Source of the DNA: a virus | Strand: one strand, 5' to 3' | IMG/VR virus record: IMGVR_UViG_3300042361_000297 | Coordinates: 1-22,609 of that record | Length of the DNA stretch: 22,609 bases | Shown: one piece after another, positions 1,739-22,609 of the stretch | Layout of the letters: every line of letters starts with the position of its first letter | How positions within the stretch are numbered: position 1 is the stretch's first letter | Notes under the pieces: model-generated | What the model was told of the DNA's origin: nothing | Seen by the model: the letters and a program-made list of their open reading frames with translations, nothing else | Database searches by the model: none | Translations under genes and position numbers: made by a program

Positions 1739-1976
1739 ACGCACCCATGTCATACACTGTGGGATCTATCCCTGCGAGATCGCCCAGATCGATTGTTCCT
1801 GGGATAGTAAAGAAATCTGGATTATAACCACCAACTTCGATAATACTACCATCAGTCTTCTTCGAGTATAATGTGCCATCAGCGAGGTTGACTGCGAGTT
1901 CTCCGACAGCAATATCAGTTGCCGTTGGGATTGCACCCGAAGTTTCACTTCTTTTAAGTTGGACAACGGTCGACAT
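1734..1976 (-). CDS. Small modular tail-fibre-like protein (QxKRS module)
   Basis: 80-residue protein. Its first 50 or so residues ([20 protein letters not shown], then VGELAVNLADGTLYSKKTDGS) are the same module that opens the 116-aa protein at 4101-4451 and, more distantly, the 563-aa fibre at 4760-6451. In marine myoviruses this N-terminal pattern occurs in fibre and virion structural proteins. The short tail ends in TVYDMGAL. The ATG (1974-1976) overlaps the TAA of the preceding 631-aa gene by one base (TAATG), implying translational coupling. It could be a minimal fibre or a baseplate or fibre adaptor; no enzyme motif is visible. Confidence 0.8.
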   Translation of the reverse strand: MSTVVQLKRSETSGAIPTATDIAVGELAVNLADGTLYSKKTDGSIIEVGGYNPDFFTIPGTIDLGDLAGIDPTVYDMGAL

Positions 1977-4753: not shown

Positions 4754-4761
4754 TATTTATT
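4754..4761 (-). promoter_or_regulatory. Late-promoter-like box AATAAATA
   Basis: Seven of eight matches to TATAAATA, abutting and overlapping the TAA stop (4760-4762) of the 563-aa fibre gene and 49 nt upstream of the 93-aa gene. Transcripts from it would carry the 4724-4744 hairpin in their leader. Confidence 0.5.
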
Positions 4762-6451
4762 AGTATGTTCCACCGTCGATATTACCGAACGAAGGAGCAA
4801 CACCTGTACCACCAGATTTTAGAACTTGACCAGCAGTTCCAACTGCGGTTGCTTGGATAGCAGAAGTTCCGCTACCGAAGAGAACACCGTTAGCAGTCAG
4901 TGTTTGTGCACCAGTACCACCGTCTGCAACGCCGATTGCTGAAGCAAGCGAAGCAATAGTTCCGCCTTCGAGGTTAGCAACAAGAGTAGCAATGGTATAA
5001 CCAGTTGCGCCTGTGTTAACAGTTGTTGTTGGAGCAACTTGTGAATCTCTGAAGAGTCTCCACTTACCGTCCGAAGCATCGCGGAAAAGACCTGAATAAA
5101 GGTCTAGCGAACCGCTGGTATCATACATACCGAACAGACCGATGTCAACTGCGTCGGTTGCATTGTTGTCGTTACCAACGAATACGAGAGGATCGGTAAC
5201 AGTTAGAGTTGTCGAGTTAACAGTAGTTGTTGTTCCCGAAACTGTTAGGTTTCCTGCAACAGTAACGTTAGCACCCGAAAGTGTAAGAGCAGTAGTTCCG
5301 TCTGATGCCTTGATGTCATTTCCGCCGATCTTAAGATCGCCAGCAACAGTAACGTCTGCGCCCGAAAGTGTTAGAGCAGTAGCAGAAGATGACTTAATGT
5401 CATTACCAGTTACGGTAAGATCACCAGCAATAGCAACGTTTGCAGCATCAAGTGTAATCGCAGTAGCAGAAGATGACTTAATGTCGTTTCCTGTAACTGT
5501 TAGGTCGCCAGCAACGGCAACATCTGCACCCGAAAGAGTGATAGAAGTTGTTCCGCCAGATGCCTTGATGTCGTTACCACCAACTGTTAGGTCACCAACA
5601 AGAACAACGTTGTCTGTAAGAGCAACAGTTACGCCAGCATCTTCAGAACCTGAACCTGTGATTGCAACTTGGTTTGCAGTTCCAGCAACAGTAGCAACAT
5701 AGTTACCAGTTGTATCAGTTCCAAGAGCAACCGAGTTGGCAGCAATCGAAGCAACACCTGATTCACTGATTGTAATGTCGCCAGAAACGGCAGCATAGAT
5801 GTAATCGCCAATATCTTCAGCAGTAATTTTCTTGTTTGCAGTTGCCGAAGCATCATAAACAAGGAACTCATCCGCATCAGCAAGTGATGTCAGAGCAGTA
5901 GCGCCAGTAATATCAGCAGCGATAGCAACTTGGTTGTCTGAAACTGTTGTCTTGACACCAGCTGAACCAGCAAAAGTCAGAGTTCCACCAGTCGAGAAGG
6001 AATCCGTATTAGGAACTCCTTGGTTATCGCTGATTGTGAATGTTGACGAAGCAGGTGAAGCGAATGCAAGTTGACCTGAACCATTTGTGGTAAGAATCTG
6101 CCCGTTTGTACCGTCTGCGGTTGGAAGGATCAAAGTAAGATCAGCAGCAAGTGTATCTGGTGCTTTCAGAGTTACTTTGTTGGAACCGTTATCTGTTCCT
6201 TCAGCAAAGGTTGCTTTACCACCAACTGATGATGTTGCGTCGATAAGACGAGCATCAACCTTGTCTGTGAAATACTTACCACCGACTGCGTGAATTGCGG
6301 CACTTCCGCCTTCTACCGATTCGATGTAAAGTTTTGCACCAGCGCCGCTATTGCTGGCGTCTTGTGCGTATGCCATTTCGCCTTCTAGGAGGGCGGATGT
6401 TGTTGGAGCAGTTGCACCTGAACTTCTTTTAATTTGAATAATTGTTGACAT
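4760..6451 (-). CDS. Tail-fibre-like structural protein with beta-repeat core
   Basis: 563-residue fibre-type protein. It opens MSTIIQIKRSSGATAPTTSA, then LLEGEMAYAQ, the longer marine-phage version of the QxKRS module. Residues 285-403 contain four to five copies of a 27-29 residue repeat (GDLTVTGNDIKSSSATALTL, then SGADVTVA). [12 protein letters not shown] at 401-412 and the following DPLVFVGNDN / DIGLFGMYD region recur in many cyanophage structural proteins. GVADGGTGAQTLTANGVLFG (507-526) is a common tail-fibre motif, and the protein ends NIDGGTY. The ribosome-binding site is AGGAATAG. It is probably a trimeric baseplate or tail fibre; target unknown. Confidence 0.85.
   Translation of the reverse strand: MSTIIQIKRSSGATAPTTSALLEGEMAYAQDASNSGAGAKLYIESVEGGSAAIHAVGGKYFTDKVDARLIDATSSVGGKATFAEGTDNGSNKVTLKAPDTLAADLTLILPTADGTNGQILTTNGSGQLAFASPASSTFTISDNQGVPNTDSFSTGGTLTFAGSAGVKTTVSDNQVAIAADITGATALTSLADADEFLVYDASATANKKITAEDIGDYIYAAVSGDITISESGVASIAANSVALGTDTTGNYVATVAGTANQVAITGSGSEDAGVTVALTDNVVLVGDLTVGGNDIKASGGTTSITLSGADVAVAGDLTVTGNDIKSSSATAITLDAANVAIAGDLTVTGNDIKSSSATALTLSGADVTVAGDLKIGGNDIKASDGTTALTLSGANVTVAGNLTVSGTTTTVNSTTLTVTDPLVFVGNDNNATDAVDIGLFGMYDTSGSLDLYSGLFRDASDGKWRLFRDSQVAPTTTVNTGATGYTIATLVANLEGGTIASLASAIGVADGGTGAQTLTANGVLFGSGTSAIQATAVGTAGQVLKSGGTGVAPSFGNIDGGTY
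5243..5596 (-). repeat. In-frame repeats of 81-87 nt in the 563-aa fibre
   Basis: Four clear copies and a partial one of the unit encoding GDLTVTGNDIK, then x4-5, then ITLSGADVAVA. Two central copies (GDLTVTGNDIKSSSATA) are identical at protein level. They look like a beta-strand repeat of a fibre shaft that grows or shrinks by unequal exchange. Confidence 0.8.
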
Positions 6452-6698: not shown

Positions 6699-7027
6699 TA
6701 TTTTGTTACCTCTGGATTAATTACGACGATCCCCTCGAGAACTCGTAGCGTTTCGCCATCGCCTGTAATTTCAATATCATAAACATACCTCCCTGCTTTT
6801 ATTGCTGATGTTTGCACAGCAGTCAATGAAATAGTAACTTCACCATCTTCTGGTAAAGTAATTTCAGCAGTAAAACTAACGGAAGTATTAGTATAATATG
6901 ATTTGCGCATTTGTGCTGCAGCAGTATAATCAGTAAGATCTTTCGGATCCCCGTTCTGATCATTTACCATAAGAGACAAAGAAAAAGTTGTTCCTTGGTC
7001 GATATAGATATTTTGAATTTGTGCCAT
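6698..7027 (-). CDS. Small virion structural protein, possibly Ig-like (BppU-type)
   Basis: 109-residue protein beginning MAQIQNIYIDQGTTFSLSLM, with DLTDYTAAAQMRKSYYT, an EDGEVTISLTAVQTSAIKAG stretch and RYVYDIEITGDGETLRVLEG. Ordered beta strands with a DLTGxTxxAQxRxxxxx pattern and a YxYDIEI strand are known from small phage tail proteins with an immunoglobulin-like fold, such as the N-terminal domain of baseplate upper proteins. That fold is inferred from pattern only. It is the first gene of the left structural block. It has an AAGGG ribosome-binding site and a perfect late promoter 28 nt upstream. Confidence 0.78.
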   Translation of the reverse strand: MAQIQNIYIDQGTTFSLSLMVNDQNGDPKDLTDYTAAAQMRKSYYTNTSVSFTAEITLPEDGEVTISLTAVQTSAIKAGRYVYDIEITGDGETLRVLEGIVVINPEVTK

Positions 7028-7037
7028 CGGGAACCCT

Positions 7038-7045
7038 TATAAATT
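7038..7045 (+). promoter_or_regulatory. Late-promoter-like box TATAAATT driving the plus-strand island
   Basis: Seven of eight matches to TATAAATA on the plus strand, 32 nt upstream of the first glycosyltransferase ATG (7078). It faces away from the minus-strand box at 7056-7063, so the 50-bp gap works as a compact divergent promoter region. Confidence 0.5.
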
Positions 7046-7055
7046 ACTATGACAC

Positions 7056-7063
7056 TATTTATA
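7056..7063 (-). promoter_or_regulatory. T4-type late promoter TATAAATA for the left structural block
   Basis: Exact TATAAATA on the minus strand, 28 nt upstream of the ATG at 7027. It would transcribe the 109-aa, 71-aa and downstream fibre genes. Confidence 0.72.
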
Positions 7064-7077
7064 ATTTTGGAGTTGTG

Positions 7078-7755
7078 ATGAAAACAATTATAATGCTTAA
7101 ATATGGCACAAAATATTCTGCCGATGATGTGAATAGAATCGTCAAAGATACAGGCAGGAAATATACATACGTATGTTTTACCGACGACCCGACTGGATTG
7201 GATCCAATTGTTGTTCCTTGGCCGTTGCCAGATGATATAGAAGGTCACTGGTATAAGGTTTGGATGTTCAGTCAACGAGGGTTTGGTGATGTTCTTTATC
7301 TGGATCTAGATATTCGTATTCAAAAAAATATTGATCATCTGTGGAAATACCTTGACATTCATCCAACAATAGCGTATACTTACTGGAAGAATATAGAGTT
7401 TCCTGATTATGTCGGAGAAACTCATGGCATGCGGTATTTAAGTAATTACAACTCGAGCGTAATGATGTGGAAAGATGGGACTGTTCATCATATATGGGAG
7501 CACTTTCAATCAAATCCAGATTACTTCATGGTTAAGTATTTTGGTGACGACAGGTTCTTATGGCACGAAGATTTTAGATTTAATTACTTTCCGAAAGGTG
7601 AGATATATTCGTTCGTATATGGCGCAGACTATTATGGTATAGATGACCACAATAAATCTTTCTGGTATAGACCAGACTATACTATAGCATTACTAAATGG
7701 GTTAGACCAGTTTCCTGGAGCAGATAAAGAATATGATGAACTTCGTATGCATTAA
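7078..7755 (+). CDS. GT-A-type glycosyltransferase, paralogue 1 of 4
   Basis: 225-residue putative nucleotide-sugar glycosyltransferase. The N-terminal KYGTKYSADDVN and FTDDPTGLD segments, a DxD metal and nucleotide-sugar motif (YLDLDI, D76 and D78), YNSSVMMW, FGDDRFLWHE and YSFVYG occur in the same order in the next three genes. I take the ATG at 7078, preceded by TTTTGGAG, over the ATG at 6988 because the latter would run back into the divergent promoter and the 109-aa gene. It is the first gene of the plus-strand island and its 3' end overlaps paralogue 2 by 23 nt. Donor and acceptor are unknown; targets could be virion proteins, host surface glycans or modified bases. Confidence 0.8.
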   Translation: MKTIIMLKYGTKYSADDVNRIVKDTGRKYTYVCFTDDPTGLDPIVVPWPLPDDIEGHWYKVWMFSQRGFGDVLYLDLDIRIQKNIDHLWKYLDIHPTIAYTYWKNIEFPDYVGETHGMRYLSNYNSSVMMWKDGTVHHIWEHFQSNPDYFMVKYFGDDRFLWHEDFRFNYFPKGEIYSFVYGADYYGIDDHNKSFWYRPDYTIALLNGLDQFPGADKEYDELRMH

Positions 7756-8491
7756 GTGGGGTGATAAGTATCCCGCCAAATATGTGAACAATCTTTACAA
7801 CATGGTAAAGAAGAACTACCCCAACCTGTTTACATTCACGTGTTATACTGATGATACCGATGGTTTAATTTGCGACACTGCGCCTATACCAGACGATGGT
7901 ATTCTACATCCAAAATATTGGTTTGGTAAAGAAACCTTCTGTTTTGACCGAGCAAAGTTCTTAGTATTTAATTCACACAACTGGTTGGGGTACATAGGTG
8001 ACTGGTGCTATTTTGATCTTGACCTTGTGATCCAAGAAGATATATCTGACATTGAAGAACTTGCTCAGAAACCTCGTATAATTCAATGCCGCTGGCAACC
8101 ACAATCACAGAAACATGACAGACTGTTTATTGATACTCGAGGAACATTCTACAATTCTAGTATGATGCTTTGGCCTGGTAAATCATGCGAACATATCTAC
8201 AACGATGCCATCGAGAATTCCGAATCGATATTTAAAACTTTCTTCAAGGGGAGCGATAATTATCATTACTGGAGACAGAGGGATTTCTGGAAAGACATTC
8301 CAGGCGGATGGATTTATTCTTGGAATCGAGGAAAGCATTACCCAGATGATATTGAACGATTTAAGTTTCGATCCGATGCCAAGATTTGCTTATTCAATAC
8401 GGATAATGTTCCCCATCCTTCTGCTAAAGAGCAAATTAAGTTATTGGAATGCGAACATGAAGACATTCTCAGATTGTGGAACTGCGAATGA
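7733..8491 (+). CDS. GT-A-type glycosyltransferase, paralogue 2 of 4
   Basis: 252 residues. Shared family marks: VCIKWGDKYPAKYVNNLY at the N-terminus, CYTDDTDGL, HPKYWFG (also in paralogue 3), the DxD motif CYFDLDLVIQ (D95 and D97), FYNSSMMLW, KGSDNYHYW and GWIYSWNRG. Two adjacent ATGs (7733 and 7736) lie inside the 3' end of paralogue 1, and the first is annotated. It is closest to paralogue 3, sharing the extra HPKYWFG loop, so that pair probably arose by the latest duplication. No membrane segment is seen; it is presumably cytosolic during infection. Confidence 0.82.
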   Translation: MMNFVCIKWGDKYPAKYVNNLYNMVKKNYPNLFTFTCYTDDTDGLICDTAPIPDDGILHPKYWFGKETFCFDRAKFLVFNSHNWLGYIGDWCYFDLDLVIQEDISDIEELAQKPRIIQCRWQPQSQKHDRLFIDTRGTFYNSSMMLWPGKSCEHIYNDAIENSESIFKTFFKGSDNYHYWRQRDFWKDIPGGWIYSWNRGKHYPDDIERFKFRSDAKICLFNTDNVPHPSAKEQIKLLECEHEDILRLWNCE

Positions 8492-9306
8492 GAGTTAATT
8501 ACGTTTGCTGTAAATGGGGAACAAAGTATTCCGCTGAGTTTGTCAATCGTCTTTATCGAATGGCAAAGAAGCATACCCCAGATAATTTTGAGTTTCACTT
8601 CTATTGCTACACAGATAATAGTGAAGGGTTTGACACTGAAATTAAAGTCATCGACTTCCCAGACATTCCTGACATCCACCCAAAATACTGGTTCGGTTCT
8701 GAGGATTTCAAATACGGCATGGCACGTTGTTGGGACAGACCAAAGACTTTTATCTTCAACACCCACAACTTCGCAGACGATAAACCAACTGGCAGATTTG
8801 TATTCTTCGACCTCGATGTTATCATACAAAATGATTTGTCGCCAATCATCACTTATGACCTAGAGAATCCTACCAAGTTGCGCTCGTGGTGGCAAGATCC
8901 GAGACCGATGAAGTCTCGCAACTTCAAACTTTCCCATGGCGCATATACTAATGGTAGTTGTATGGTGTGGTCAGATGATCAGACAGAGTGCATCTGGCAG
9001 GATGTGCTAGAACATCAAGAACGTATTTGGTTCACGTTCACCGATGGAACTGACAACTATCATAGTTGGCGATGGGGAGACTTTAGCGATACTCCATTAT
9101 GGAAACATTTTCCAAATACCTTTGCTTACTCTTACAATCGCGGACGCGACTGGGATTCAGGCGACCTTGAAGTCGGTATATATAGAAAGGACTGTATTGT
9201 GTGTGTTTTTAATGTGGATTTACTTCCATTTACAGACAACAGCAGAGGGAAAGTGAAGCAGGAATCGCTTGTTGATCCTGATCTCTTAGAACATTGGAAT
9301 GTATAA
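8488..9306 (+). CDS. GT-A-type glycosyltransferase, paralogue 3 of 4
   Basis: 272 residues, the longest of the set. It begins MRVNYVCCKWGTKYSAEFVN and carries CYTDNSEGFD, HPKYWFGSEDF, the DxD motif FFDLDVIIQ (D108 and D110), TNGSCMVW, DGTDNYHSW and FAYSYNRG. The start at 8488 makes an ATGA overlap with the stop of paralogue 2, a standard coupling arrangement; a GTG at 8476 would add only four residues. It differs from the other copies in having Gly instead of Ser in the NSS motif (TNGSCMVW). Confidence 0.82.
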   Translation: MRVNYVCCKWGTKYSAEFVNRLYRMAKKHTPDNFEFHFYCYTDNSEGFDTEIKVIDFPDIPDIHPKYWFGSEDFKYGMARCWDRPKTFIFNTHNFADDKPTGRFVFFDLDVIIQNDLSPIITYDLENPTKLRSWWQDPRPMKSRNFKLSHGAYTNGSCMVWSDDQTECIWQDVLEHQERIWFTFTDGTDNYHSWRWGDFSDTPLWKHFPNTFAYSYNRGRDWDSGDLEVGIYRKDCIVCVFNVDLLPFTDNSRGKVKQESLVDPDLLEHWNV

Positions 9307-9989
9307 TGATTAATATTTACACAGTAAAGTGGGGATTCAAATATGATTCGGAAGATGTCAATAAAATTCTCGAACAATGCAAACAACACATTACAACAGA
9401 ATTTAATTTTTATTGTTTGACCGAACATTCTGGTGGATTAAGTCCAGAAATTAATGTCATCCCATTACCCGAGGATAACTACTACGAAAAATGGTGGAAT
9501 AAGTTATATCTTTTTGACCGAAATGTTGTTAAGCAAAAAGGAGAAAAACTTTTTCTAGATCTTGATATCGGTATTCAAAACAATATCGATTGCATCGTTG
9601 ATCATGATCCGGAAGACGGTTTAACTTTTGTTCGCACTCATTGGCATAACATGAAGAAAATGAAACAAGACACCCAAGATATTCCGCACAAATATACAGA
9701 CTTAAATTCTAGCGTGTTGAGGTGGAATGATAGGTTAGATATCGACAAAATCACCAAGTTCGTCACAGATTATGCAGATCAAATGTTCTTCTATTATCGC
9801 GGTCTCGACAATCTATTCGGGCATCAAAGAGAACGTCTTCTGAAAATTGACCATTTCCCAGACGGTTGGGTATATAGTTACAACTACGGATATATGTGGC
9901 CGACAGATGTAAGAGAACAAGTCCTGCGCGAAGAACCACTTATTTGTTTATATGATTCAATGGAAAGACCACAAGATGTTAAATTATAA
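9306..9989 (+). CDS. GT-A-type glycosyltransferase, paralogue 4 of 4
   Basis: 227 residues starting MINIYTVKWGFKYDSEDVNK. It has CLTEHSGGL, the DxD motif LFLDLDIGIQ (D85 and D87), DLNSSVLRW, RGLDNLFGHQRE and GWVYSYNYG. The ATG overlaps the TAA of paralogue 3 by one base (TAATG); the TTG at 9294 is less likely. It lacks the HPKYWFG insertion and is therefore closer to paralogue 1, giving the cluster a 1/4 and 2/3 pairing. Its end overlaps the methyltransferase-like gene by 14 nt. Confidence 0.82.
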   Translation: MINIYTVKWGFKYDSEDVNKILEQCKQHITTEFNFYCLTEHSGGLSPEINVIPLPEDNYYEKWWNKLYLFDRNVVKQKGEKLFLDLDIGIQNNIDCIVDHDPEDGLTFVRTHWHNMKKMKQDTQDIPHKYTDLNSSVLRWNDRLDIDKITKFVTDYADQMFFYYRGLDNLFGHQRERLLKIDHFPDGWVYSYNYGYMWPTDVREQVLREEPLICLYDSMERPQDVKL

Positions 9990-11929: not shown

Positions 11930-12625
11930 TTAATCTAACATACCGTGCGGGATAGTATAATGATAAATCACTCTCGGTTGTCCTTGGAGTTCTTCTTCTT
12001 TATATCCAGCGACAAAATTCCATCGAGCATCTGGGTCGGGAAACCGACCTGCCTTTACCCCAAAATCAAACTGGTTGAGGAGTCTCCACATCGTAAACGT
12101 ATCCCACTGCAAGGCAGATTTTGGATAATGTTTGCGATCCCATTCTGGTTTATTTTGCGCCCAATACTCGTCATACCAAGCACGCATCATCTCTAAGGTT
12201 TGTGGATTATTCCGATAGACAAACAACCCACAATGCTCAGTCATTTCTTCTGTCTCGGATAACTTGGTCAGTGCTGCGTTATACGGACGATTGGCAGTGA
12301 AGATAACATCGGTATCCTCTGGGATCTGATCAAAAATCTTTTGGATGTCTTCGTGTTCGACTTCAGTATCACAGTCCATATAAACTGTCAAGTCATACGG
12401 AGTCTGATCGAGCGCCCAAAGTTTTGCTCGTTTATCGCGAGGAACATTTTCGGTAATTACATTATCAAAAATTTCATAATCATCTGGTTGCACCCATTCT
12501 TCTTGGGTGAAGAATGTGATATTTGCATCTGGAAAATAATCTTTTAAAGAAATTGCCGAGTTTCTTGCTGCCCTGTAGTAACCTTTGCGGATTGTGGCAA
12601 CGTACAGGAATCCATTATTCGGCAT
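11930..12625 (-). CDS. Glycosyltransferase, different family from the tandem set
   Basis: 231 residues: NGFLYVATIRKGYYRAARNS at the N-terminus, FTQEEW, a KLWALDQTPYDLTVYMDCD segment carrying the DxD motif (D84 and D86), then CGLFVYRNN, WDTFTMWRLL and the C-terminal YHYTIPHG. This is the layout of phage and bacterial GT-A nucleotide-diphospho-sugar transferases. It shares no more than the DxD with the four plus-strand paralogues. I take the ATG at 12623-12625, which overlaps the end of the upstream gene by 11 nt; a TTG at 12643 would add six residues. Its position between two virion-protein blocks again suggests glycosylation in late infection. Confidence 0.75.
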   Translation of the reverse strand: MPNNGFLYVATIRKGYYRAARNSAISLKDYFPDANITFFTQEEWVQPDDYEIFDNVITENVPRDKRAKLWALDQTPYDLTVYMDCDTEVEHEDIQKIFDQIPEDTDVIFTANRPYNAALTKLSETEEMTEHCGLFVYRNNPQTLEMMRAWYDEYWAQNKPEWDRKHYPKSALQWDTFTMWRLLNQFDFGVKAGRFPDPDARWNFVAGYKEEELQGQPRVIYHYTIPHGMLD

Positions 12626-13085
12626 CAACTGCTTCTTGCGCAATAGCAGTATTCGCTTCTTCTTGCATCAGTAACATTACTGTGTATGCAGTGACTTCCA
12701 TAAACGTCTTAGACTTGCGAATCTTAGATTTTAAATCGCGATTCTTAGAGTTTTTAACTATATCAAGTTCGAAGGCATCCAACTTAGCAGCAAACAATTG
12801 TTCTTGTTGCACGCGAGTCTTGTCTACCTTCTGACGTTCAAGGTTTTGCTTTATTTGATTATTTCGTTCTTCCATGCGCCGATCAGTATTGGCATCGATC
12901 TGCCCGATACTATAGAGACGCATCACTTCTTCGTAATCACGATTGCTACCATCATTCATGATGGATGCAGTAACACGCTTATTAGTGTCAGGATAGAAAA
13001 ACTCAGCGATGATATGCTGACGTTCTTTATTCGCCCAATAAGGATTTTCGATCTTACGGGTAACTACAGGTGAGGTATTAATCAA
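12615..13085 (-). CDS. Unrecognised protein with central coiled coil, TTG start
   Basis: 156 residues, family not recognised. The N-terminal part (VVTRKIENPYWANKERQHII, then AEFFYPDTNKRVTASI) looks like a small beta domain. Residues about 65-120 are charged and probably helical or coiled coil (DRRMEERNNQIKQNLERQKV), and the C-terminus is an Ala/Glu-rich helix. The start is a TTG at 13083-13085, supported by GGAGAATTGAA just upstream; the next ATG would discard about 42 residues that fit the protein. It is the first gene of a three-gene minus-strand operon read from the promoter at 13121-13149. A virion or assembly role is possible, but nothing proves it. Confidence 0.68.
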   Translation of the reverse strand: MINTSPVVTRKIENPYWANKERQHIIAEFFYPDTNKRVTASIMNDGSNRDYEEVMRLYSIGQIDANTDRRMEERNNQIKQNLERQKVDKTRVQQEQLFAAKLDAFELDIVKNSKNRDLKSKIRKSKTFMEVTAYTVMLLMQEEANTAIAQEAVDAE

Positions 13086-13154: not shown

Positions 13155-15686
13155 TTATGCAGTTTTTACCCACAAATATACTGTTGAGATGGTGTCTTTA
13201 GTCGCTTGAATGGTCGCACCAGAATAGGTTCCTGAAAACGACTGCGTATACGATCCGCTATAGAAACCAGTATATGTTGCAGTTCCTAGATAGAATCCTG
13301 TATAGTTGCCAGTAAAGTTCCCAGTGTATGTACCCGTATAGGTAGCACTTCCTAGATAGAATCCTGTATAGTTGCCAGTAAAGTTCCCAGAATAGGTTCC
13401 TGTATATGTGGCAGTTCCTGCATAGAATCCAGTATAGTTGCCACTAAAGTTTCCAGTGTATGTACCCGTATAGGTAGCAGTTCCTGCATAGAATCCTGAA
13501 AAAATTCTCGCATAGAATCCAACATAATTACCTGTATAGTTTGCTGGACCAATATAGTTTCCACTAAAGAATCCAGTGTAGTTGCCTGTATATGTTCCAG
13601 TATAGTTTGCTGTACCAATATAGTTACCAGTAAAGAACCCAGTGTAGTTGCCTGTATATGTTCCAGTATATGTAGCAGTTCCTGCATAGAATCCAGTAAA
13701 GAATCCAGTGTAGTTACCCGCATAGAATCCAGTATAGTTTGCGGGACCAATATAGTTACCAGTAAAGTTCCCTACATAGTTTCCACTATAGTTGCCAGCA
13801 TAATTAGCAGCATAGTTTCTTGAACCAGAGAAAGTGCCAAGATAGTTGCCACTATAGTTACCTGCATAGGATGCAGCATAGTTTCTTGAACCCGAGAAGA
13901 AACCTACATAGTTTCCACTAAATGTTCCCGCATAGTTACCAGCATAGTTTCTCGATCCAGCATAATTTCCAAGATAGTTACCGCTGAATGATCCGAGATA
14001 GTTGCCACTAAAGTTACTCGCATAAGTTCCTAGATAGTTACCAGCAAATGCTGTTCCAACGAAACCACCGAAAAATGGTGCATAGAATCCGAGATAGTTG
14101 CCACTAAAGTTTCCTAGGTAGGTTCCAGAGAAGTTTCTTGAATATGTTCCGAGATAGTTACCTGCATAGGATGCAGCATAGTTTCTTGAACCCGAGAAGA
14201 AACCTACATAGTTTCCTGAGAAGTTACCTGCATAAGATCCAGCGTAGTTTCTCGAACCAGCAAAGAATCCAGTATAGTTGCCACTAAAGTTGCTGGCATA
14301 GTTACCAGCATAGTTTCTAGAACCTGCAAAAGTTCCTAGGTAAGTTCCGCTGAAGTTTCCTGAATATGTTCCGGAATATGGAGCAGTGCCAGCATAACCA
14401 CCAGCATAGTTGCCGCTAAATCCACGAGAATATGAACCAGAGTAGTTTGCTGGACCTACGTAACCACCAACATAGTTGCCACTGAATCCTCGTGAGTATG
14501 AACCAGAATATGGGGCAGGTCCAACATAACCTCCAACATAGTTACCGCTGAATCCTTGTGAGTATGATCCGGAATATGGAGCAGTGCCTGCATAGGCTCC
14601 TGAGTATGTACCAGAAAAGTTACCGACATAGTTGCCCGTATAGTTTGCTGGACCTATATATCCGCCGCTGAAATTGTTGGCATAACTACCAGAGTATCCA
14701 CCAGAGTAGTTTGCTGGACCAACAAATCCGCCGCTGAAATTATTTGCAAAAGTGCCAGAATATGTTCCGGAATAGTTTGCTGGACCAACAAATCCACCAC
14801 TAAAGTTATTTGCAAAAGTGCCAGAGTATCCACCAGAGTAGTTTGCTGGACCTACATATCCACCAGCATAATTACCACTGAAGTTACCAACATAGTTACC
14901 AACATAGTTACTTGGCGAAATTTGTTCTCTGGTATCAGTAGTAGAAGTTCCTAATTGGACCCATGTTCCGCCAGATGGTGTTGAAGATTGAACCTTGTAT
15001 GTCCCTAAACCAGAATCAATAATTCTATTACGGAAACTTGGTAGCATCTGCAGAATTTCGCCAGAGGACATTTCTTTAATGTCCTTGGTATTGATCAGTT
15101 TAAGTGGTTTAAGACTTGTATCTGGAGTGCTAGTCGCCGCAGTTTTCTGCCAAAGGTAAGTAAGAGTATTACCACCGTTTGCAACATCAGTCAGTGTGTA
15201 GCGAGAAACCCACGTTCCACCGCTGGGGGCAGTTGCTTGTAGACGATATTGTCCAGCAGTATACGAACTTTCGGCGACCATCGCAGAAATAGCATAATCA
15301 AGCAATTCACTATCAATTTCTGCATCAGACATTTCTTTGATGCGGTCAGTGGAATATTTGATCGGTCTATTAGTAATACTTTCAGTCGCCGCAGCAGATA
15401 CCTGCTTTGCGTAATATGTTACAGTATCAATCGCACCAGTAGCTGGGTGAGTTCCTGTTGCCTCTTGACGATCTGTATCAACAAAGGTTCCGATTGCAGT
15501 TCCTGTGCCAGTATTATTTGTGGTGATATTAATTTCACCAGTACCTGTACCATCAGCATTCGCACCAAAGGAAACTGTTAGGATATTTGCTACATAATTT
15601 TTGATTTCATCTACAGACATTGCCTGCAACCCCTGCATATTTGCAGAGGTTACTGGTGTCGCAGAAGATTTAATTCTAAGAACCAT
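13155..15686 (-). CDS. Giant YxG-repeat virion protein, shorter paralogue
   Basis: 843 residues. Residues 1-258 form an N-terminal domain shared with the 1102-aa neighbour: EINITT, IGTFVDTDR, EATGTHPATG, YTAGQYRLQATAPSGGTW, RYTLTDVANGGNT, YLWQKTA, then PSFRNRIIDS and TSTTDTREQISP. Residues about 260-823 are almost wholly a short-period repeat of x-Tyr/Phe-x-Gly, for example NYVGNFSGNYAGGYVGPANY and TGTYTGNYTGFF. The last 20 residues (ending KDTISTVYLWVKTA) match the end of the neighbour. The protein has no Cys, transmembrane segment or enzyme motif. The ATG lies 2 nt after the stop of the 1102-aa gene, with AGGACT upstream. Probably a trimeric tail fibre or adhesin whose N-terminal domain attaches to the virion; the repeat fold is unknown. 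Confidence 0.85.
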   Translation of the reverse strand: MVLRIKSSATPVTSANMQGLQAMSVDEIKNYVANILTVSFGANADGTGTGEINITTNNTGTGTAIGTFVDTDRQEATGTHPATGAIDTVTYYAKQVSAAATESITNRPIKYSTDRIKEMSDAEIDSELLDYAISAMVAESSYTAGQYRLQATAPSGGTWVSRYTLTDVANGGNTLTYLWQKTAATSTPDTSLKPLKLINTKDIKEMSSGEILQMLPSFRNRIIDSGLGTYKVQSSTPSGGTWVQLGTSTTDTREQISPSNYVGNYVGNFSGNYAGGYVGPANYSGGYSGTFANNFSGGFVGPANYSGTYSGTFANNFSGGFVGPANYSGGYSGSYANNFSGGYIGPANYTGNYVGNFSGTYSGAYAGTAPYSGSYSQGFSGNYVGGYVGPAPYSGSYSRGFSGNYVGGYVGPANYSGSYSRGFSGNYAGGYAGTAPYSGTYSGNFSGTYLGTFAGSRNYAGNYASNFSGNYTGFFAGSRNYAGSYAGNFSGNYVGFFSGSRNYAASYAGNYLGTYSRNFSGTYLGNFSGNYLGFYAPFFGGFVGTAFAGNYLGTYASNFSGNYLGSFSGNYLGNYAGSRNYAGNYAGTFSGNYVGFFSGSRNYAASYAGNYSGNYLGTFSGSRNYAANYAGNYSGNYVGNFTGNYIGPANYTGFYAGNYTGFFTGFYAGTATYTGTYTGNYTGFFTGNYIGTANYTGTYTGNYTGFFSGNYIGPANYTGNYVGFYARIFSGFYAGTATYTGTYTGNFSGNYTGFYAGTATYTGTYSGNFTGNYTGFYLGSATYTGTYTGNFTGNYTGFYLGTATYTGFYSGSYTQSFSGTYSGATIQATKDTISTVYLWVKTA
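13218..14909 (-). repeat. Tyr/Phe-x-Gly short-period repeat region (843-aa protein)
   Basis: About 560 codons built from units such as GNYTGFYAG, ANYSGTYSGTFANNFSGG and GSRNYAGNYAG. An aromatic residue is followed two places later by Gly, most often with a four-residue spacing. Larger blocks recur, including a PANYSG..SGTFANNFSGGFVG unit near the N-terminal side and a GSRNYA unit in the middle. The region contains more than thirty N-x-S/T triplets (NFS, NYT, NYS) by eye. Confidence 0.88.
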
Positions 15687-15688
15687 AG

Positions 15689-18600
15689 TTATGCAGTCCT
15701 AATCCAAAGTTTAACCGTTGATATTGTGTCCTTCGAGGAAAGCACAGTTGCTCCGGAATACGTCCCCGCGAATGTTCCAGTATAATTACCCGTAAAGAAA
15801 CCACCGTATGCAGGTGAAGTATAAACGCTAGTAAAGAAACCAGTATAGAACCCTGTATATATAGCAGTTCCTGTATAGAATCCTGTAAAGTTACCTGCAC
15901 TGGTGAAACTACCAGTATAAAACCCAGTATAATTACCTGTATATGATGCAGTTCCTGTATAGAATCCAGTATAGAATCCAGTGTAATTACCAGTGTATGC
16001 TGGACCAATAAAGTATGCAGTATATGCAGTTCCAGTCGCTCCAGTATAGTAACCAGTATATGGTGTTCCTGGAATTGGTGCACCAGTATAGTAACCAGTG
16101 TAAGGTGTTCCTGGAGTTGGTTCGCCGCTATAGAAACCAGTGTAAGGTGTTCCTGGAGTTGGTTCGCCGCTATAGTAACCAGTATATGGTGTTCCTGGAG
16201 TAGATGGACCTGTATAGTAACCAGTATATGGCGTAGCAGGAGTAGATGGACCTGTGTAGAATCCAGTATATGGCGTCGCTGGGGATGGTTCGCCACTATA
16301 GAACCCAGTATATGGTGTTCCTGGAGTGGAATCGCCAGTATAGTAACCAGTGTATCTTGTAGGAACGAACAACGGTCCTGGATCCCCTGGACCTGCTCCT
16401 CCAGGTCTTGGAACCAAGGTTCCTGGCTGAATAGGCGGACCACTGTAGAACCCAGTATATGGTGTCGCTGGAGTAGATGGACCTGTATAGAATCCTGTGA
16501 ATGATTTTGGAACTGCTTGTGCAGTATAGAACCCAGTGTAAGGTGTTCCTGGAGTAGAAGAACCAGTATAGAAACCAGTGTATGGTGTTCCTGGAGTCGA
16601 TGGACCGCTGTAGAACCCAGTGAATGGTGTCGCTGGAGTAGATGGACCTGTATAGAAACCAGTGTATGGTGTTCCTGGAGTAGATGGACCTGTGAATGAT
16701 TTTGAAACTGGTTGTGCAGAATACACTCCAGTGTAAGGTGTTCCTGGAGTAGAATCGCCAGTATAGTAACCAGTATATGGACCAGTCGGATTTCCTACAA
16801 GAGTATAGAACCCAGTGTATTCCGCAATAGTCGGAACTACACCTTGGTAGAACCCTGTATAAATTCCTGGACCTGTGCTTGTGTACCATCCAGAATAATT
16901 TCCTGGAACAAGAGCCTGTCTATAATTCGTGATTGGTGGTCCTGGTTCACCTGGGAAAATTGGTGGTCCTGGTTCATATCCCTCATAGAATTCTAACGAA
17001 GGTACGCCAGTGTAAGTTCCCAAGTAATTCTGGGTGACAGGCGAACCACTATAATTACCAACATATGGAGTTAAAATTGGACCCATGAAGTCTTGCTCAG
17101 GCGGTCCATCACCTGTATAAGTCCCAGTAAACGACCCACCTGGATTTGTCCCACTATAGAATCCAGTATATGGCGTAGCAGGAGATGCACCGCCAGTGTA
17201 GTAACCAATGAAAAAGGCAGGAAGTTGGCCCGACGGAAACCCATTGAGATCGGCAACATCCCATTTCAGCGTATAGAATCCAGTGTAGGATGTTCCTGGA
17301 GTCGACGGTCCAGTATAGTAACCAGTATATGGTGTTCCTGGAGTGGAATCGCCAGTATAGTAACCAGTATATGGTGTCGCTGGAGTAGATGGACCTGTAT
17401 AGTAACCAGTATATGGTGTTCCTGGAGTGGAATCACCAATATAGGTTCCTGAAAAGAAGGCAGGAATCTGTCCCGACGGCATCCCATTGAGATCGGCAAC
17501 ATCCCATTTCAGCGTATAGAATCCAGTATAGAACCCAGTATATGGCGTAGCAGGAGTAGATGGACCTGTATAGAATCCAGTATATGCAGGCGCTGGAGTT
17601 AGATCTGCAGTATAGAACCCAGTATATGGTGTTCCTGGAGTCGACGGTCCAGTATAAAACCCAGTGTAAGATGGTGCTGGAGTTGATGGTCCAGTGTAGA
17701 AACCAGTAAAAGTTTCACCTGGAGTTGATGGTCCAGTGTAGAATCCAGTGTATGGTGTTCCTGGAGTTGATGGTCCAGTATAGAATCCAGTGTATGAAGG
17801 TGCTGGAGTTGATGGTCCAGTATAGAAACCAGTGTATGAAGGTGCTGGAGTTGATGGTCCAGTATAGAAACCAGTAAAAGTTTCACCTGAAGTTGATGGT
17901 CCAGTATAGAACCCAGTGTATGAGGGTGCATCAACAGAATATGGTATTCCATCGCGCTGAGTGGTATACGCAGGTCCAGTATAGGATCCTGTGTATGCTC
18001 TACTATAGGTTACGAAATTTTCTACAATAGTTCTAGTGTATACTCCGCTGAAACTGCGAGTGTACGTTGGACCTGCACCAGTAAAAACTCCAGTATAATT
18101 CGCAGGTCCAGTATAACCAGCAGAGAAATTATTGCTGTATCCAGGACTTGTGAATGGTGAGGTATATGGTGGACTGCCATATGCTCCGCTATACGTTCCT
18201 GTATAGTTACCAACATAATTTTGCGGAGAAACTTGCTCTCTAGTATCAGTAGTAGAGGTTCCTAATTCAACCCATGTTCCGCCACCTGGAGCAGTCGCTT
18301 GCAGTTTATAAGTTCCGATATTAGTATCGATAATGCGATTACGGAAGTTCGGAACCAACTGCTCAATTTCGGCAGCGGTCATAATCTTCAACGAGTTGGC
18401 ATCATTACTTTTTAATGGTGCAAGAGAATCGTTGGCGACTGTTGAAGCAGCGGTTTTTTGCCACAGGTAGGTTGTGGTATTTCCGCCATTCGCGACATCA
18501 GTGAGCGTGTATCTTGCTTGCCAAGTTCCACCTGTAGGAGCAGTTGCTTGTAGTCTATATTGACCAGCAGTATATTCAGATTCGGAAACAAACGCCGAAA

Positions 18601-18997
18601 TCACAGTATCCAAAACACCGTCCAGATTAGCATCAGTCATTCGGCGAATGCCATCAGAATGCCATGCGACAGGACGAGCAGTTACGCTTTCGGAAACAGG
18701 AGCAGTTACTTGCTTTACATAATAGGTAGTAGTAGTTATGTCACCCGTGGCAGGATGTGTCCCAGTCGCTTCAGTTCTATCCGTGTCAACGAACGTTCCA
18801 ATAGAAGTTCCTGAACCCGAATTATCTGTTGTGATGTTTATCTCAGCAGCGCCAGATCCAGTGGTATCCGTCGCAAACTTAGTTGTGATGACATTTGCAA
18901 TATAGTTCTGAACCTCTGCGTTGGTCAAAGGTTCCAGTCCGCTGAAAACAGCAGACGTAATTGGCGTCGTAGATGCTTTGACCTTTAGAGGATTCAT
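15689..18997 (-). CDS. Giant YTG/Pro-repeat virion protein, longer paralogue
   Basis: 1102 residues. The N-terminal domain (about 1-258) and the C-terminal tag (KDTISTVKLWIRTA) align with the 843-aa protein with only single-residue gaps. The middle (about 260-1082) is a different repeat: a 14-residue unit YTGFYTGPSTPGTP and variants (PATP, PAPS, GETF, GDST) occurs about 27 times. Interruptions include two LKWDVADLNG modules, Pro/Gly-rich inserts (PGPPIFPGEPGPPITNYR and a similar one), and, near the C-terminus, simpler YTGFYTG stretches like those of the paralogue. The start follows AGGTTGAACTAAA and lies 1 nt after the 160-aa stop. A fibre or adhesin role is inferred from context and composition. 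The Pro-rich units suggest an extended stalk different from that of the paralogue. Confidence 0.85.
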   Translation of the reverse strand: MNPLKVKASTTPITSAVFSGLEPLTNAEVQNYIANVITTKFATDTTGSGAAEINITTDNSGSGTSIGTFVDTDRTEATGTHPATGDITTTTYYVKQVTAPVSESVTARPVAWHSDGIRRMTDANLDGVLDTVISAFVSESEYTAGQYRLQATAPTGGTWQARYTLTDVANGGNTTTYLWQKTAASTVANDSLAPLKSNDANSLKIMTAAEIEQLVPNFRNRIIDTNIGTYKLQATAPGGGTWVELGTSTTDTREQVSPQNYVGNYTGTYSGAYGSPPYTSPFTSPGYSNNFSAGYTGPANYTGVFTGAGPTYTRSFSGVYTRTIVENFVTYSRAYTGSYTGPAYTTQRDGIPYSVDAPSYTGFYTGPSTSGETFTGFYTGPSTPAPSYTGFYTGPSTPAPSYTGFYTGPSTPGTPYTGFYTGPSTPGETFTGFYTGPSTPAPSYTGFYTGPSTPGTPYTGFYTADLTPAPAYTGFYTGPSTPATPYTGFYTGFYTLKWDVADLNGMPSGQIPAFFSGTYIGDSTPGTPYTGYYTGPSTPATPYTGYYTGDSTPGTPYTGYYTGPSTPGTSYTGFYTLKWDVADLNGFPSGQLPAFFIGYYTGGASPATPYTGFYSGTNPGGSFTGTYTGDGPPEQDFMGPILTPYVGNYSGSPVTQNYLGTYTGVPSLEFYEGYEPGPPIFPGEPGPPITNYRQALVPGNYSGWYTSTGPGIYTGFYQGVVPTIAEYTGFYTLVGNPTGPYTGYYTGDSTPGTPYTGVYSAQPVSKSFTGPSTPGTPYTGFYTGPSTPATPFTGFYSGPSTPGTPYTGFYTGSSTPGTPYTGFYTAQAVPKSFTGFYTGPSTPATPYTGFYSGPPIQPGTLVPRPGGAGPGDPGPLFVPTRYTGYYTGDSTPGTPYTGFYSGEPSPATPYTGFYTGPSTPATPYTGYYTGPSTPGTPYTGYYSGEPTPGTPYTGFYSGEPTPGTPYTGYYTGAPIPGTPYTGYYTGATGTAYTAYFIGPAYTGNYTGFYTGFYTGTASYTGNYTGFYTGSFTSAGNFTGFYTGTAIYTGFYTGFFTSVYTSPAYGGFFTGNYTGTFAGTYSGATVLSSKDTISTVKLWIRTA
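15752..18220 (-). repeat. 42-nt in-frame repeats encoding YTGFYTGPSTPGTP-type units
   Basis: About 27 units by eye of 42 nt each, many differing only at third positions or in the Gly/Ala, Thr/Ser and Pro/Asp columns. Adjacent units are often nearly identical in DNA, as expected from recent slippage or unequal recombination. This is protein-coding repetition, not a CRISPR or origin iteron array. Confidence 0.88.
17214..17520 (-). repeat. Two copies of a LKWDVADLNG-PSGQ-PAFF module
   Basis: Copies at about 17457-17520 and 17214-17276 encode LKWDVADLNGMPSGQIPAFF and LKWDVADLNGFPSGQLPAFF. They share a run of over 40 identical bases at the LKWDVADLNG end. They stand out as non-repeat, possibly folded insertions within the YTG/Pro repeat and mark a duplicated block about 244 nt apart. 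Confidence 0.8.
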
Positions 18998-18998
18998 T

Positions 18999-19481
18999 TT
19001 AGTTCAACCTGTTACCACTTGTATCGTAAACAATAAGATTAGTAATGCGATACCAATCTTGCGTATCCTGCGCAACTAACTGAACAGAACTATATGGTGC
19101 CAGATTAACAGCAACGTTCACAGTTCCTTCGTCAATGACGTCAGATGTGTTTGGATAAACCTTAATGGTAACCGCAGTAGTATTGACAATAGTAACAGAA
19201 ACGCCTACAGCAGCAGTCGGGAGTTTGACACCTTGGTTTGCTGTTGCCGAGGTAACAATATTGACTGTTTTTGTCAGCGCAGTTGCGCCACCTTGATCAG
19301 TTCCTGCTGCAGCAACCGATGCATTTACTGATGGGATAAATGCGCCAGTTAGTGTCAGGTTCTCGAACGATGGACTGTCACCAGATTGATACTTATCTTG
19401 ATTGAGGTTGGTAAAGTTATCATCAACCTCATTATTTGTTAAAGGTACGCCCTTGGCGGACCTCAGTGTAATTGTGCTCAT
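18999..19481 (-). CDS. Small tail-fibre-like structural protein
   Basis: 160 residues. The start (MSTITLRSAKGVPLTNNEVD, then DNFTNLNQDKY) has the common phage-fibre signature PLTNNEVDDNFxNLN, followed by SPSFENLTLTG. The middle is a beta-rich domain (TVNIVTSATANQGVKLPTAA, then ITIKVYPN-type strands, APYSSVQLVAQDTQDWYRIT). It ends LIVYDTSGNRLN, similar to the [11 protein letters not shown] end of the 631-aa fibre. The ATG overlaps the TGA of the 75-aa gene by four bases (ATGA). Probably a short fibre or baseplate decoration protein translated together with the giant paralogues downstream. Confidence 0.8.
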   Translation of the reverse strand: MSTITLRSAKGVPLTNNEVDDNFTNLNQDKYQSGDSPSFENLTLTGAFIPSVNASVAAAGTDQGGATALTKTVNIVTSATANQGVKLPTAAVGVSVTIVNTTAVTIKVYPNTSDVIDEGTVNVAVNLAPYSSVQLVAQDTQDWYRITNLIVYDTSGNRLN

Positions 19482-19706: not shown

Positions 19707-22609
19707 TTACACCTGCAGCGCGATTGCTCTCAGTTCCTTAAACTTAGGAACTACAGAACTATTGTTGGAGAACATGACAATCTTAATTGCCATTTTGTCA
19801 AATTTGGTATAAGTCGCACCCGAATACATGTATGTGAAGGGTTCATCTTCTAGTTCGTCAACTTTATTTGCCTTTGGTATTTTATATTCATACTCAACAA
19901 ATCCAGCAGCGGCAGTAGAACTTAGTGGCGATACACTTGTCTCTAGTTCTACCCAATCAAGATCTTCAAAGTTTCTAGAGTCTGATGCATTCTGCAACTT
20001 AGCATATATTCTTGCTGAAGTTCCTGCTGGTAGATAATTACTCAGATAGACCCTCAAATCTTCTGAGTTACCATCAAGATTAACTCGGCGCGAAATATAT
20101 TTAGAACTTGCAGTACCAACATTAGTATCTTCATCTCTATTACCATCATCTGAATTGATGAAGTTAGAAATACAAATCAATGAACACTTTCTAAGATCGA
20201 TCACAGGAGAAACTGTATCAGTCATTGTTTTCATACCAAATCGAAGATTCATTGACTTATTGCCACCAAGATCCTCAGTCTCGTTTGATTTTGAGAAAAT
20301 TGCTGCTTCTGTTAGGATGTCATTTGTTTCACCAAACGTTAGTCGCTCATATGTATTTCCTGCACCAGATGCTCCAGTTGCAGTCTTAGCATAAGTCCAA
20401 ACACCCGTAGTTGGCGTGAAGTCCATGTAACCGATATTAGTCTGGATAGAGTTGATCAGTTTATTTTCGACTTCAGCAACTGTAGTTTTGATTGTTCCGT
20501 TTGTGATTATATCTGCAGCAGCAAATTCGCCTTCTTGTACAACAATCTTCAGAACGTTATGCAACGGATCATATTGCTTAACATAACCATACTTTGTGTC
20601 TTCTTCAGATCCTAGAACGTAAACCTTTTCACCAGCAGCGAACTTGGTCGGGGTCACTGCATCATTAGAAACAAGAAGCATCTGCTCTGAAAGTGCAAGA
20701 TAGTCATAGTTAGAATTCTGGAACTTGGCAGTCGAGATAACTGATGTATCAAAGATTGCGCGATACAGAGTAAACTTTATATCTTCTGCTTGCTTTTCGC
20801 TCCATGTGCGATTGTTTGCAGAAGTGAACAGCATACCAACATTTGGTTGTTCTGAAATTCTCTTAGAAGTACCTACTTCATTTTCACCAATTTCAGAAAC
20901 CCATGTAGTATATCCAGGATCGTTACCTGCAGGCAGAAGAACGAAACAATATTCTGTATTGTTTTGCAGATATACTGGTGATGGGAATGTGAAGCGAGTT
21001 TCTGCGAATGTTACTACACCTGCCAGATTTTCAGTCGATACAGCAACATCGTCTGCATTCAAAGTAACTTCGCCGAATGGAAGAACCTTCTCCGATGGGA
21101 ATCCGTTAATCATCTCACGAAGTTGTAGAGTAATTGGTGCAGTTCCCCTGCTTCTGAAGTATACATCCAGACCAGTTGCGAATGTTCCAAATGGCATACC
21201 ATCGACAAAGAAACTTTGTGCGAGTGGATCTAATGCTCCAAAAGGACCAATACCAAAGAACCCAAGATTTCCAAAATCTATTCCAAAATCTGGGAACCCA
21301 TTATCGTCGAAATTAAACTCTACCAACTCAGGTTCTGCTGGTGGTCCAGGAGGAGGAGGAGGCGGAGGTGGTGGTGGCGCTGGTGGTATAATTGGAGGAA
21401 CTGGAACTTCCCTCTCAATAACAATAGTGGGATTGTTAGTAATATTAGTAACTTCTTCCACCAGAGTAATATTATTGACCACTGTATTTACCACATTTGT
21501 AGTATTAACAAGTGTTGTATTATTAGTGACGTTAGAAACGTTTGTAGTATTGTTAACAGTTGTAAAGGTATTATTTACTGTAGTGTTCTGAATTGTTCCT
21601 ACTGTTCTCTCACCAATACGATTTGTTGTAGTATTGTTTTCTGTTACCGAACGTGAATCGCTAACATTGGTAAACGCAATATTTGCCTCTCTAGTAGAGA
21701 CAACAGTTCCTTCAACAACCTGCGAGAGACCGTTAGCAGAGAATGAATTTGTGGCAGAAGTTGTAACGAATGGAGATCTGTTAAACGGATCATCACAAAC
21801 TCTGAAATTCTTAGTTCCAACTCTGAATGTATTCGCAGGGATTCTAAACTGGATCGCCAGTTCTCCGTTGTCATCAGTAACCAAAGGTGCACCATAAACA
21901 CCCGTTGGACCAGCAATAGCATATGCAGAATATTCTGCTGGATCAGTCGGTGATGCAGTTAGAGCAGCACTTGATAGTGGGCGACAGTGCGCAGATACAT
22001 CAATACCATCGAAGAATGGATAGATTCTTGTATCTGGTTTTAGTCTTTTAGTTTTAACTGTAATTGTAACGCTTCTCATATATGGAATTATAGAAGCATT
22101 TGTTACACGATTACCAAGATCTTTCGTCGTAGTTTGCGGAGTGACACCCATAGTCACACCTTGACGTGTTTGACGCTGCGTGGTAGTAGTAGTTGAGATC
22201 TGAATTTGCTCTTGGAAAAGAGTATCACCAGAAACTCTAGTTTGTCCGCCTGTCGTAGTTGTATCGGTAGAAATCGAGCGACCAGTTACGATATCCTGCC
22301 AGTCATTCCATTGAGTTCCCCATGCATTTGCCATAGCAGCAAAGTTATCATAGTTACCATCAAAGTTTACTGCAAGGTCAGGAAGAACCGCAGTATCAGT
22401 CCAGTTATCGACTGGTGGATCAAGAGTCATGTCACCAATGTAATTGAATAGAAGTTCGCCTACGCAATTTCTTGATTTCGAGGCAAATTTATTCTGAGTA
22501 AGAACACCATAGTTATATGGAAGTGTTAGAAGATCGCCTGTCTTTTTTACGCCAATAGAATTTGCAGAATCAAAAATTAGATCAACATTTTCGATATTAA
22601 AGTAAGGAC
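19707..22609 (-). CDS. Large virion structural protein with polyproline hinge (5' end outside window)
   Basis: The frame is open to the window edge, giving at least 966 residues. The ATG at 22430 is internal, because upstream codons (LLTLPYNYGVLTQNKFAS, then NYIGD) read on without a stop and fit the family. LTLPY near the N-terminus, YIGDMTLDPPVDNW, the RSVTITVKTKRLKPDTRIYP region and DPLAQSFFVDG (about 22430-minus-numbered residues 400-410) are hallmarks of the large baseplate or tail structural proteins of cyano- and pelagimyoviruses, which I believe carry a DUF4815-like domain. A stretch of about 75 Asn/Thr/Val-rich residues is followed by VPVPPIIPPAPP and a run of ten prolines, then a Phe/Gly-rich linker. 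The C-terminal half is beta-rich. It leads the operon that ends with the giant repeat proteins. Confidence 0.82.
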   Translation of the reverse strand, partial: PYFNIENVDLIFDSANSIGVKKTGDLLTLPYNYGVLTQNKFASKSRNCVGELLFNYIGDMTLDPPVDNWTDTAVLPDLAVNFDGNYDNFAAMANAWGTQWNDWQDIVTGRSISTDTTTTGGQTRVSGDTLFQEQIQISTTTTTQRQTRQGVTMGVTPQTTTKDLGNRVTNASIIPYMRSVTITVKTKRLKPDTRIYPFFDGIDVSAHCRPLSSAALTASPTDPAEYSAYAIAGPTGVYGAPLVTDDNGELAIQFRIPANTFRVGTKNFRVCDDPFNRSPFVTTSATNSFSANGLSQVVEGTVVSTREANIAFTNVSDSRSVTENNTTTNRIGERTVGTIQNTTVNNTFTTVNNTTNVSNVTNNTTLVNTTNVVNTVVNNITLVEEVTNITNNPTIVIEREVPVPPIIPPAPPPPPPPPPPGPPAEPELVEFNFDDNGFPDFGIDFGNLGFFGIGPFGALDPLAQSFFVDGMPFGTFATGLDVYFRSRGTAPITLQLREMINGFPSEKVLPFGEVTLNADDVAVSTENLAGVVTFAETRFTFPSPVYLQNNTEYCFVLLPAGNDPGYTTWVSEIGENEVGTSKRISEQPNVGMLFTSANNRTWSEKQAEDIKFTLYRAIFDTSVISTAKFQNSNYDYLALSEQMLLVSNDAVTPTKFAAGEKVYVLGSEEDTKYGYVKQYDPLHNVLKIVVQEGEFAAADIITNGTIKTTVAEVENKLINSIQTNIGYMDFTPTTGVWTYAKTATGASGAGNTYERLTFGETNDILTEAAIFSKSNETEDLGGNKSMNLRFGMKTMTDTVSPVIDLRKCSLICISNFINSDDGNRDEDTNVGTASSKYISRRVNLDGNSEDLRVYLSNYLPAGTSARIYAKLQNASDSRNFEDLDWVELETSVSPLSSTAAAGFVEYEYKIPKANKVDELEDEPFTYMYSGATYTKFDKMAIKIVMFSNNSSVVPKFKELRAIALQV
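21339..21638 (-). repeat. Asn/Thr/Val-rich repeats and polyproline hinge
   Basis: Codons for NTTVNNTFTTVNNTTNVSNV and similar units (about 21411-21638) alternate valine or isoleucine with Asn/Thr in a regular way, as in a trimeric coil or beta-helical shaft. They are followed by a Pro-rich segment with ten prolines in a row (about 21339-21401). This separates an N-terminal half from a C-terminal half that restarts with DPLAQSFFVDG. Confidence 0.75.

Follow-up and report, generated by a model that had tools for sequence, protein, structure and literature searches.

The closest described systems for the locus considered here are two needles of phage T4. In the distal needle of gp37 (D10 and D11), residues 882-1009 are inserted in a collar domain formed by residues 811-881 plus 1010-1026, whose last 17 residues complete the collar; the stem arms (882-931 and 960-1009, 50 and 50 residues) flank a tip (932-959), the midpoint of the insertion is also that of the tip (945.5), and Gly of the stem packs on Phe of the trimer core (PMC6957217). 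This needle measures about 150 Å, and in T4 gp5 the C-terminal part is a triple-stranded β-helix in which a glycine-patterned octapeptide repeat forms a β needle from three intertwined chains, with neither fold-back nor central apex (PMC3004832). This report deals with two adjacent genes, A and B, encoded in IMG/VR record IMGVR_UViG_3300042361_000297 (22,609 nucleotides, hereafter the window), a 22.6-kb virus record in its own right and a fragment of a T4-like phage. We think it quite probable that both proteins are adsorption fibres of this phage in which a long repeat array runs out and back as an antiparallel β ribbon whose tip is formed by the array midpoint.

The proteins A and B share an N-terminal region of 254 residues, about 60% identical (residues 4-318 of A against B: 60% identity, E 1e-115), and their C-terminal ends match as well, forming a 19-residue tag (TVLSSKDTISTVKLWIRTA and TIQATKDTISTVYLWVKTA in the pair). 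Between base and tag the arrays differ, with ~829 residues in A and ~570 in B. An earlier note on this DNA had described such a layout, with Tyr/Phe-x-Gly arrays of about 560 and 820 residues, and the present measurements agree with it; the end modules, which it called identical, are homologous but only 60% identical. The array of B holds 116 [YF]xG motifs in 573 residues, 3-4 times the chance expectation from its composition (25% Y+F, 22% G), and shows a 66-nt (22-residue) periodicity, and that of A holds 102 such motifs and is built on a 14-residue unit, YTGFYTGPSTPGTP, which is a 42-nt tandem repeat in the DNA. Gly and Ser positions of the arrays draw on all their codons, and fresh DNA slippage was therefore rejected as the source of the repeats.

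Residues 1-254 consist of three tandem copies of one module. Modules 2 and 3 match each other with E 2.5e-14 (hhalign), copy 1 matches more weakly (E 2.4e-4), and AlphaFold2 (AF2) models of relatives give each module the order β-β-α-β-β-β, that is, two short strands, a helix and three strands. Copy 2 terminates in GGTWVSRYTLTD-VANGGN-TLTYLWQKTA; copy 3 runs GGTWVQLGTSTTDTRE, at which point the array starts and the last strand is missing. The C-terminal tag, in turn, finishes in TISTVYLWVKTA. When a matrix made from the end of copy 2 was applied, the tag of B outscored all 68,235 background 12-mers, that of A was equalled by one of them and the weakest tags of the family by up to 48. The same relation holds in a distant subfamily, whose tags (e.g., TITTYTLYQRTA) correspond to the ends of its own copies of module 2 (TTVNYNIYQRTA), the W/Y difference thus being parallel in tag and copy-2 end. 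AF2, which was run on single chains only, builds the strands flanking the array (E240-256 and E824-841) with a predicted local distance difference test score (pLDDT) of about 90. Given its likeness to the final strand of the repeated module and its high-confidence modelling, the tag would represent the missing strand of module 3 and belong to the base. Both array ends most likely sit in module 3 as well, i.e., at the base, since this module lacks its last strand and the tag resembles that strand; the two strands are predicted to pair. The conserved N-terminal anchor, exchangeable β-structured repeat and aromatic packing proposed in the earlier note gain support from these results; its order of anchor, shaft and C-terminal tip does not, given a tag that resembles the module's last strand and has high AF2 confidence, and a distal point that falls mid-repeat.

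The centre of the array is marked by a specific sequence. With the array ends set at the end of DTR[EQ] and 19 residues before the C-terminus, the motif [FYI][FY][GSA]G[FY] lies 0.5-1.5 residues off the midpoint in 26 of the 26 B-type or single-gene arrays carrying it, which span 142-570 residues; this count is unfiltered, three of these arrays hold one extra copy elsewhere, and the array of L062 is devoid of the motif. For arm lengths, where only motifs near the centre were counted, the pairs are 71/71, 73/73, 81/81, 85/85, 89/89, 97/97 and so on up to 285/285, and the two arms correlate with r = 0.9999 over 19 distinct arrays, their differences ranging from -3 to +1. Among B-type and single-gene arrays fetched later, the apex is at most 1 residue off the midpoint in 22 of 23. 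Spacings between Y/F-x-G motifs in B are even in 111 of 115 cases, the 4 odd ones all falling at the apex. In A-type arrays the centre is rich in Pro (PPLAPGEPGD and others) and lies at offsets of +14 to -23, PPLAPGEPGDx equivalents occurring near the centre of other A-type arrays at +4, -8.5 and -23. The central stretch of L094 and L096_645 is non-repeat and probably globular. Equal arms, a module-completing tag and the midpoint mirror symmetry described below are likewise predicted by an antiparallel homodimer, in which full-length arrays would lie head to tail, each tag completing module 3 of the partner, in a dumbbell-shaped rod. Such a dimer needs no special centre, yet what is found there are Gly-Gly turns that break the spacing, loops rich in Pro, or stretches outside the repeat that are probably globular; furthermore, AF2 confidently builds both flanking strands from a single chain and the fold-back of the T4 precedent involves one chain only, and we consider the homodimer improbable.

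The two arms of the proposed ribbon are also matched in register. If one arm of B is compared with the other reversed, Y/F stands opposite G at a fixed offset over the whole array, as in most relatives: 41% of the pairs are Y/F-G vs 19 ± 3% with shuffled unit order (0 of 300 shuffles reach 41%), and in most B-type arrays none of 300 unit-shuffles equals the observed Y-G register. In gene A the mirror is gapped and Pro units stand opposite Pro units (score 169 vs 102 ± 10 for shuffled units, z 6.7). By a mutual-information scan over residue classes, most B-type arrays, and also the distant members L094, L231 and L235, have their best mirror offset close to zero; in A-type arrays fetched later it is -2 to +10 in 10 of 13 (two of them near-duplicates). 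The Y-G and Y-Y registers are 2 residues apart, and the register derived from module 2 (sum about 1082 in B, the expectation being taken from AF2 strands) allows either within a bulge.

Length changes follow the mirror. The B proteins of L026 and L028 are 97% identical and their sole indels are of 22 residues in each arm. Between window B and L022 B (L007/L022), 44-residue indels occur at 310 and 725, where the mirror of position 310 is about 772 and 725+44 equals 769, and further indels of 29 and 30 residues lie close to the apex. In the pair L049/L052, indels of 8 and 8 residues occupy mirrored places. An origin of the mirror at the DNA level was discarded, as inverted DNA repeats yield reverse complements and not reversed protein sequence. 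A β-solenoid shaft in which each repeat is a single coil of 22 residues and the tag lies at the far end would account for the 66-nt periodicity of B and for an AF2 strand pattern recurring about every 22 residues (pLDDT up to 68). The arm lengths listed above (71, 73, 81, 85, 89, 97 and others) are no multiples of 22, yet have residue-exact partners, and the plain β-solenoid that the earlier note had contemplated is for this reason inadequate. Its traits of whole-coil length, absence of mirror and distal C-terminus are replaced here by residue-matched arms, a mirrored pattern and a tag that belongs to the base, and Foldseek found no match to a solenoid below E 0.01; we regard this arrangement as very unlikely.

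The strands of the arrays appear to have two different faces. Residues were counted in and out of step with Y/G in 50 B-type and single-gene arrays, leaving Y, F and G out of the evidence because they set the step. The in:out ratios are 309:0 for R, 29:0 for K, 1:31 for D, 0:12 for E, 1:153 for P, 3:277 for V, 7:223 for L and 22:1462 for T. Judged from these counts, the bias is that of β-strand alternation, with Arg and Lys sharing the aromatic face. The low complexity of the arrays, their richness in Tyr and Gly and the AF2 confidence below 50 across much of their length would also suit a disordered, cohesive or elastic aromatic/Gly polymer, similar to FG-repeat or adhesive proteins and acting as a sticky tether. 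A disordered chain has no need of evenly spaced motifs (111 even and 4 odd spacings in B), face-specific residues, mirrored units or paired indels, and of the explanations considered this one receives the least credence.

A number of observations weigh against a folded-back ribbon. AF2 reaches a pLDDT of no more than 68 within the array, where it draws short strands at 22-residue spacing in a solenoid-like manner, and Foldseek matches the fold to neither gp37 nor any other fibre, the models being mostly of low confidence. Searches with two AF2 models against PDB and one against BFVD returned nothing at E 0.001 or better, a negative that is weak because most of each model has low confidence. 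Only a minority of the distant, Arg-rich subfamily is mirrored, several of its members bearing off-centre globular inserts, and single-gene arrays of the L034/L038/L040/L048 type have a central apex and no Y-G mirror signal. The apex of L143_493 (B-type, 493 residues) is off centre by -9.5 residues, the sole such B-type array, which may reflect a sequence error or a real asymmetry. Finally, the arrays are mutually related, so that the 19 distinct arrays are not fully independent events.

In the proposed folded-back fibre, residues 1-254 would form a base of three repeated modules from which the chain exits outward at module 3 as a β strand, one face of which bears Y/F/G and the opposite face small polar residues; the chain would turn at the mid-array apex, come back antiparallel and in register, and provide with its last 19 residues the missing strand of module 3, thus closing the base. 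The apex would then be the distal, receptor-facing end. Units added to both arms would alter the length of the fibre, and an apex swap would alter its tip. The arms would pair in three dimensions, and the proteins are presumably virion components that bind a receptor. The oligomer would be a trimer if T4 gp37 is taken as the model; gp37 is a homotrimer that depends on chaperones and contacts a surface receptor with its tip. The 285-residue arms of B are estimated to be roughly 65-95 nm long, by the T4 scale or as a flat strand.

Like the gp37 needle, A and B have by sequence a base module split by the array and completed by a C-terminal strand, two equal stem arms and a central tip. They differ from it in that the arms of B-type and single-gene proteins comprise 59 to 285 residues and those of A about 415, up to six to eight times the 50-residue arms of gp37, and are built of Tyr/Phe and Gly repeats; most members have just a short turn instead of a tip domain, and the base consists of three tandem modules. 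The HxH iron-binding sites of the gp37 stem are absent: neither array of the window contains His, and therefore neither has iron sites. Unlike the intertwined chains of gp5, with which they share a glycine-patterned repeat, the arrays of A and B are mirrored. Searches of PDB, Pfam and PHROGs revealed no sequence homology to the gp37/gp12 collar; more generally, no convincing match was obtained in PDB with the N-terminal region or in Pfam and PHROG with A, B and 22 N-terminal regions. The best reading of this analogy is that the needle of A and B works like that of gp37, and membership in the gp37 kind is not claimed, since sequence and fold matches and the iron-binding His are absent; the likeness may represent convergence or very remote descent.

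The evidence leans towards a large, unnamed family of phage fibres in which one chain folds back with several hundred (perhaps ~1,000) residues per arm, held by an aromatic-glycine seam and no metal, and in which length is changed by equal insertions at mirrored sites and structure alone maintains palindromic patterns in the protein. A widespread family that has no model in Pfam, PHROG or PDB gains a testable structure read from sequence, including its base, its tip and the evolution of its length. The predicted point of host contact is a defined mid-repeat site, which shifts where host-range variation should be sought. The combination of central apex, antiparallel register and paired indels offers a simple and general means to find folded-back fibres missed by structure prediction, and the paired indels pose the evolutionary question of how two distant places of one gene co-vary in length.

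Table 1. Position of genes A and B, their parts and flanking genes in the window.
Feature	Position	Strand	Remarks
gp14-like neck gene and gp13-like neck gene	3-737, 741-1709		Low end of window
156-residue protein gene	12615..13085	-	Directly downstream of fibre gene(s); position kept across family
Gene B	13155-15686	-	843 residues; open reading frame open and intact
Gene B C-terminal tag	13158..13214	-	TIQATKDTISTVYLWVKTA; putative last strand of module 3, AF2 pLDDT about 90
Gene B returning arm	13215..14060	-	
Gene B apex	14061..14075	-	FFGGF, residues 538-542, mid-array
Gene B outgoing arm	14076..14924	-	
Gene B module 3, first part	14925..15137	-	About residues 184-254, without last strand
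Gene B module 2	15138..15392	-	About residues 99-183, complete hairpin GGTWVSRYTLTD-VANGGN-TLTYLWQKTA
Gene B module 1	15393..15686	-	About residues 1-98
Gene A	15689-18997	-	1,102 residues; open reading frame open and intact
Gene A C-terminal tag	15692..15748	-	Last 19 residues; putative last strand of module 3
Gene A array	15749..18235	-	Residues 255-1083, two arms with 14-residue YTGFYTGPSTPGTP units, gapped mirror symmetry
Gene A probable apex	16934..16966	-	PPIFPGEPGPP, 14 residues off array midpoint
Gene A base	18236..18997	-	Residues 1-254, three tandem modules
160-residue protein gene	18999..19481	-	Directly upstream in near relatives; conserved cassette
Large virion-type gene	19707-22607	-	phrog_358; high end of window

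Homologues were found in viral contigs as 57, 36, 72 and 71 loci in overlapping sets; the lack of homologues in other phages, which the earlier note would have counted against its proposal, is thus contradicted by dozens of other viral contigs carrying the genes. The phages encode either the tandem pair (A then B) or one shorter gene (368-483 residues in complete copies), and the proteins of the distant, Arg-rich subfamily have 645-3,347 residues. One protein of 2,282 residues (L235) contains a 2,006-residue array with a best mirror offset of +4 within ±150 in one scan, which suggests about 1,000 residues per arm. Only one named relative was found, CDS0201 of phage C48C1 (OQ984149, Kyanoviridae; 3,347 residues, annotated as 'hypothetical'). 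It resembles A and B in its homologous N-terminal modules, Y/F-x-G/R arrays, downstream gene and closing tag (YTLYVRVA) and differs in being much longer and Arg-rich, with several globular inserts and no mirror symmetry detected overall; an internal direct duplication of ~75 residues (KTRHRSYLYYSTDT...) was also observed in this protein (L104 21012-31055). No paper on YxG-repeat phage fibres or on phage C48C1 was found in the literature. Matches to a 'structural protein' of the cyanophage S-RIM2 (Synechococcus phage) were dismissed as low-complexity similarity, as they involve xVTG-type repeats in an otherwise unrelated protein of 1,912 residues. This S-RIM2 protein (L103 4423-10161) carries xVTG/xLTG tetrad arrays, is encoded just before gp13, at an equivalent genome position, and is possibly another tetrad-based β fibre.

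The genomic context matches a T4-like phage of Kyanoviridae type, with gp13/gp14 neck genes in the window and a T4-like structural order; of the 17 records searched, most of them family contigs, 11 contain the gp23 capsid gene. Fibre genes, A and B among them, occupy the window between the neck genes and the virion genes of the high end, where a 75-residue gene matches phrog_473 ('virion structural protein'). That A and B are flanked by this virion gene upstream and by gp13 and gp14 downstream is counted in favor of their role as fibres. Near relatives whose sequence extends sufficiently share the succession 75-residue gene, 160-residue gene, fibre gene(s) and 156-residue gene, the last being retained even in the distant Arg-rich subfamily; its product is a candidate partner or chaperone of the fibre. 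Regarding the host, gp23 of one relative has its nearest matches in methylophage Melnitz and pelagiphage HTVC008M, and a heterotroph is therefore likelier than a cyanobacterium. psbA was not found in 15 family-bearing viral contigs (mostly fragments) nor in C48C1, with a Pfam model that matches twice in the S-RIM2 control; a cyanophage host is regarded as less likely on the basis of this absence and of the gp23 relationship.

Other genes of the window include two of fibre type, one (1976-3871, - strand) with a Mtd_N domain (E 7e-14) and a match to the tail protein family phrog_9648, and another (4760-6451, - strand) with an 84-nt tandem repeat. The product of the large gene at 19707-22607 has a long proline run (PPPPPPPPPP) adjoining Thr/Asn/Val-rich repeats. 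Inside the fibre cluster, on the opposite strand (6988-9989, +), lies a set of related genes, three of four of which match the glycosyltransferase family phrog_1962 (E 1e-12, 4e-11 and 0.0035), and the gene at 11930-12643 (- strand) has a weak likeness to Glycos_transf_2. Judging from these similarities, the glycosyltransferase-like genes could decorate the fibres or the host surface.

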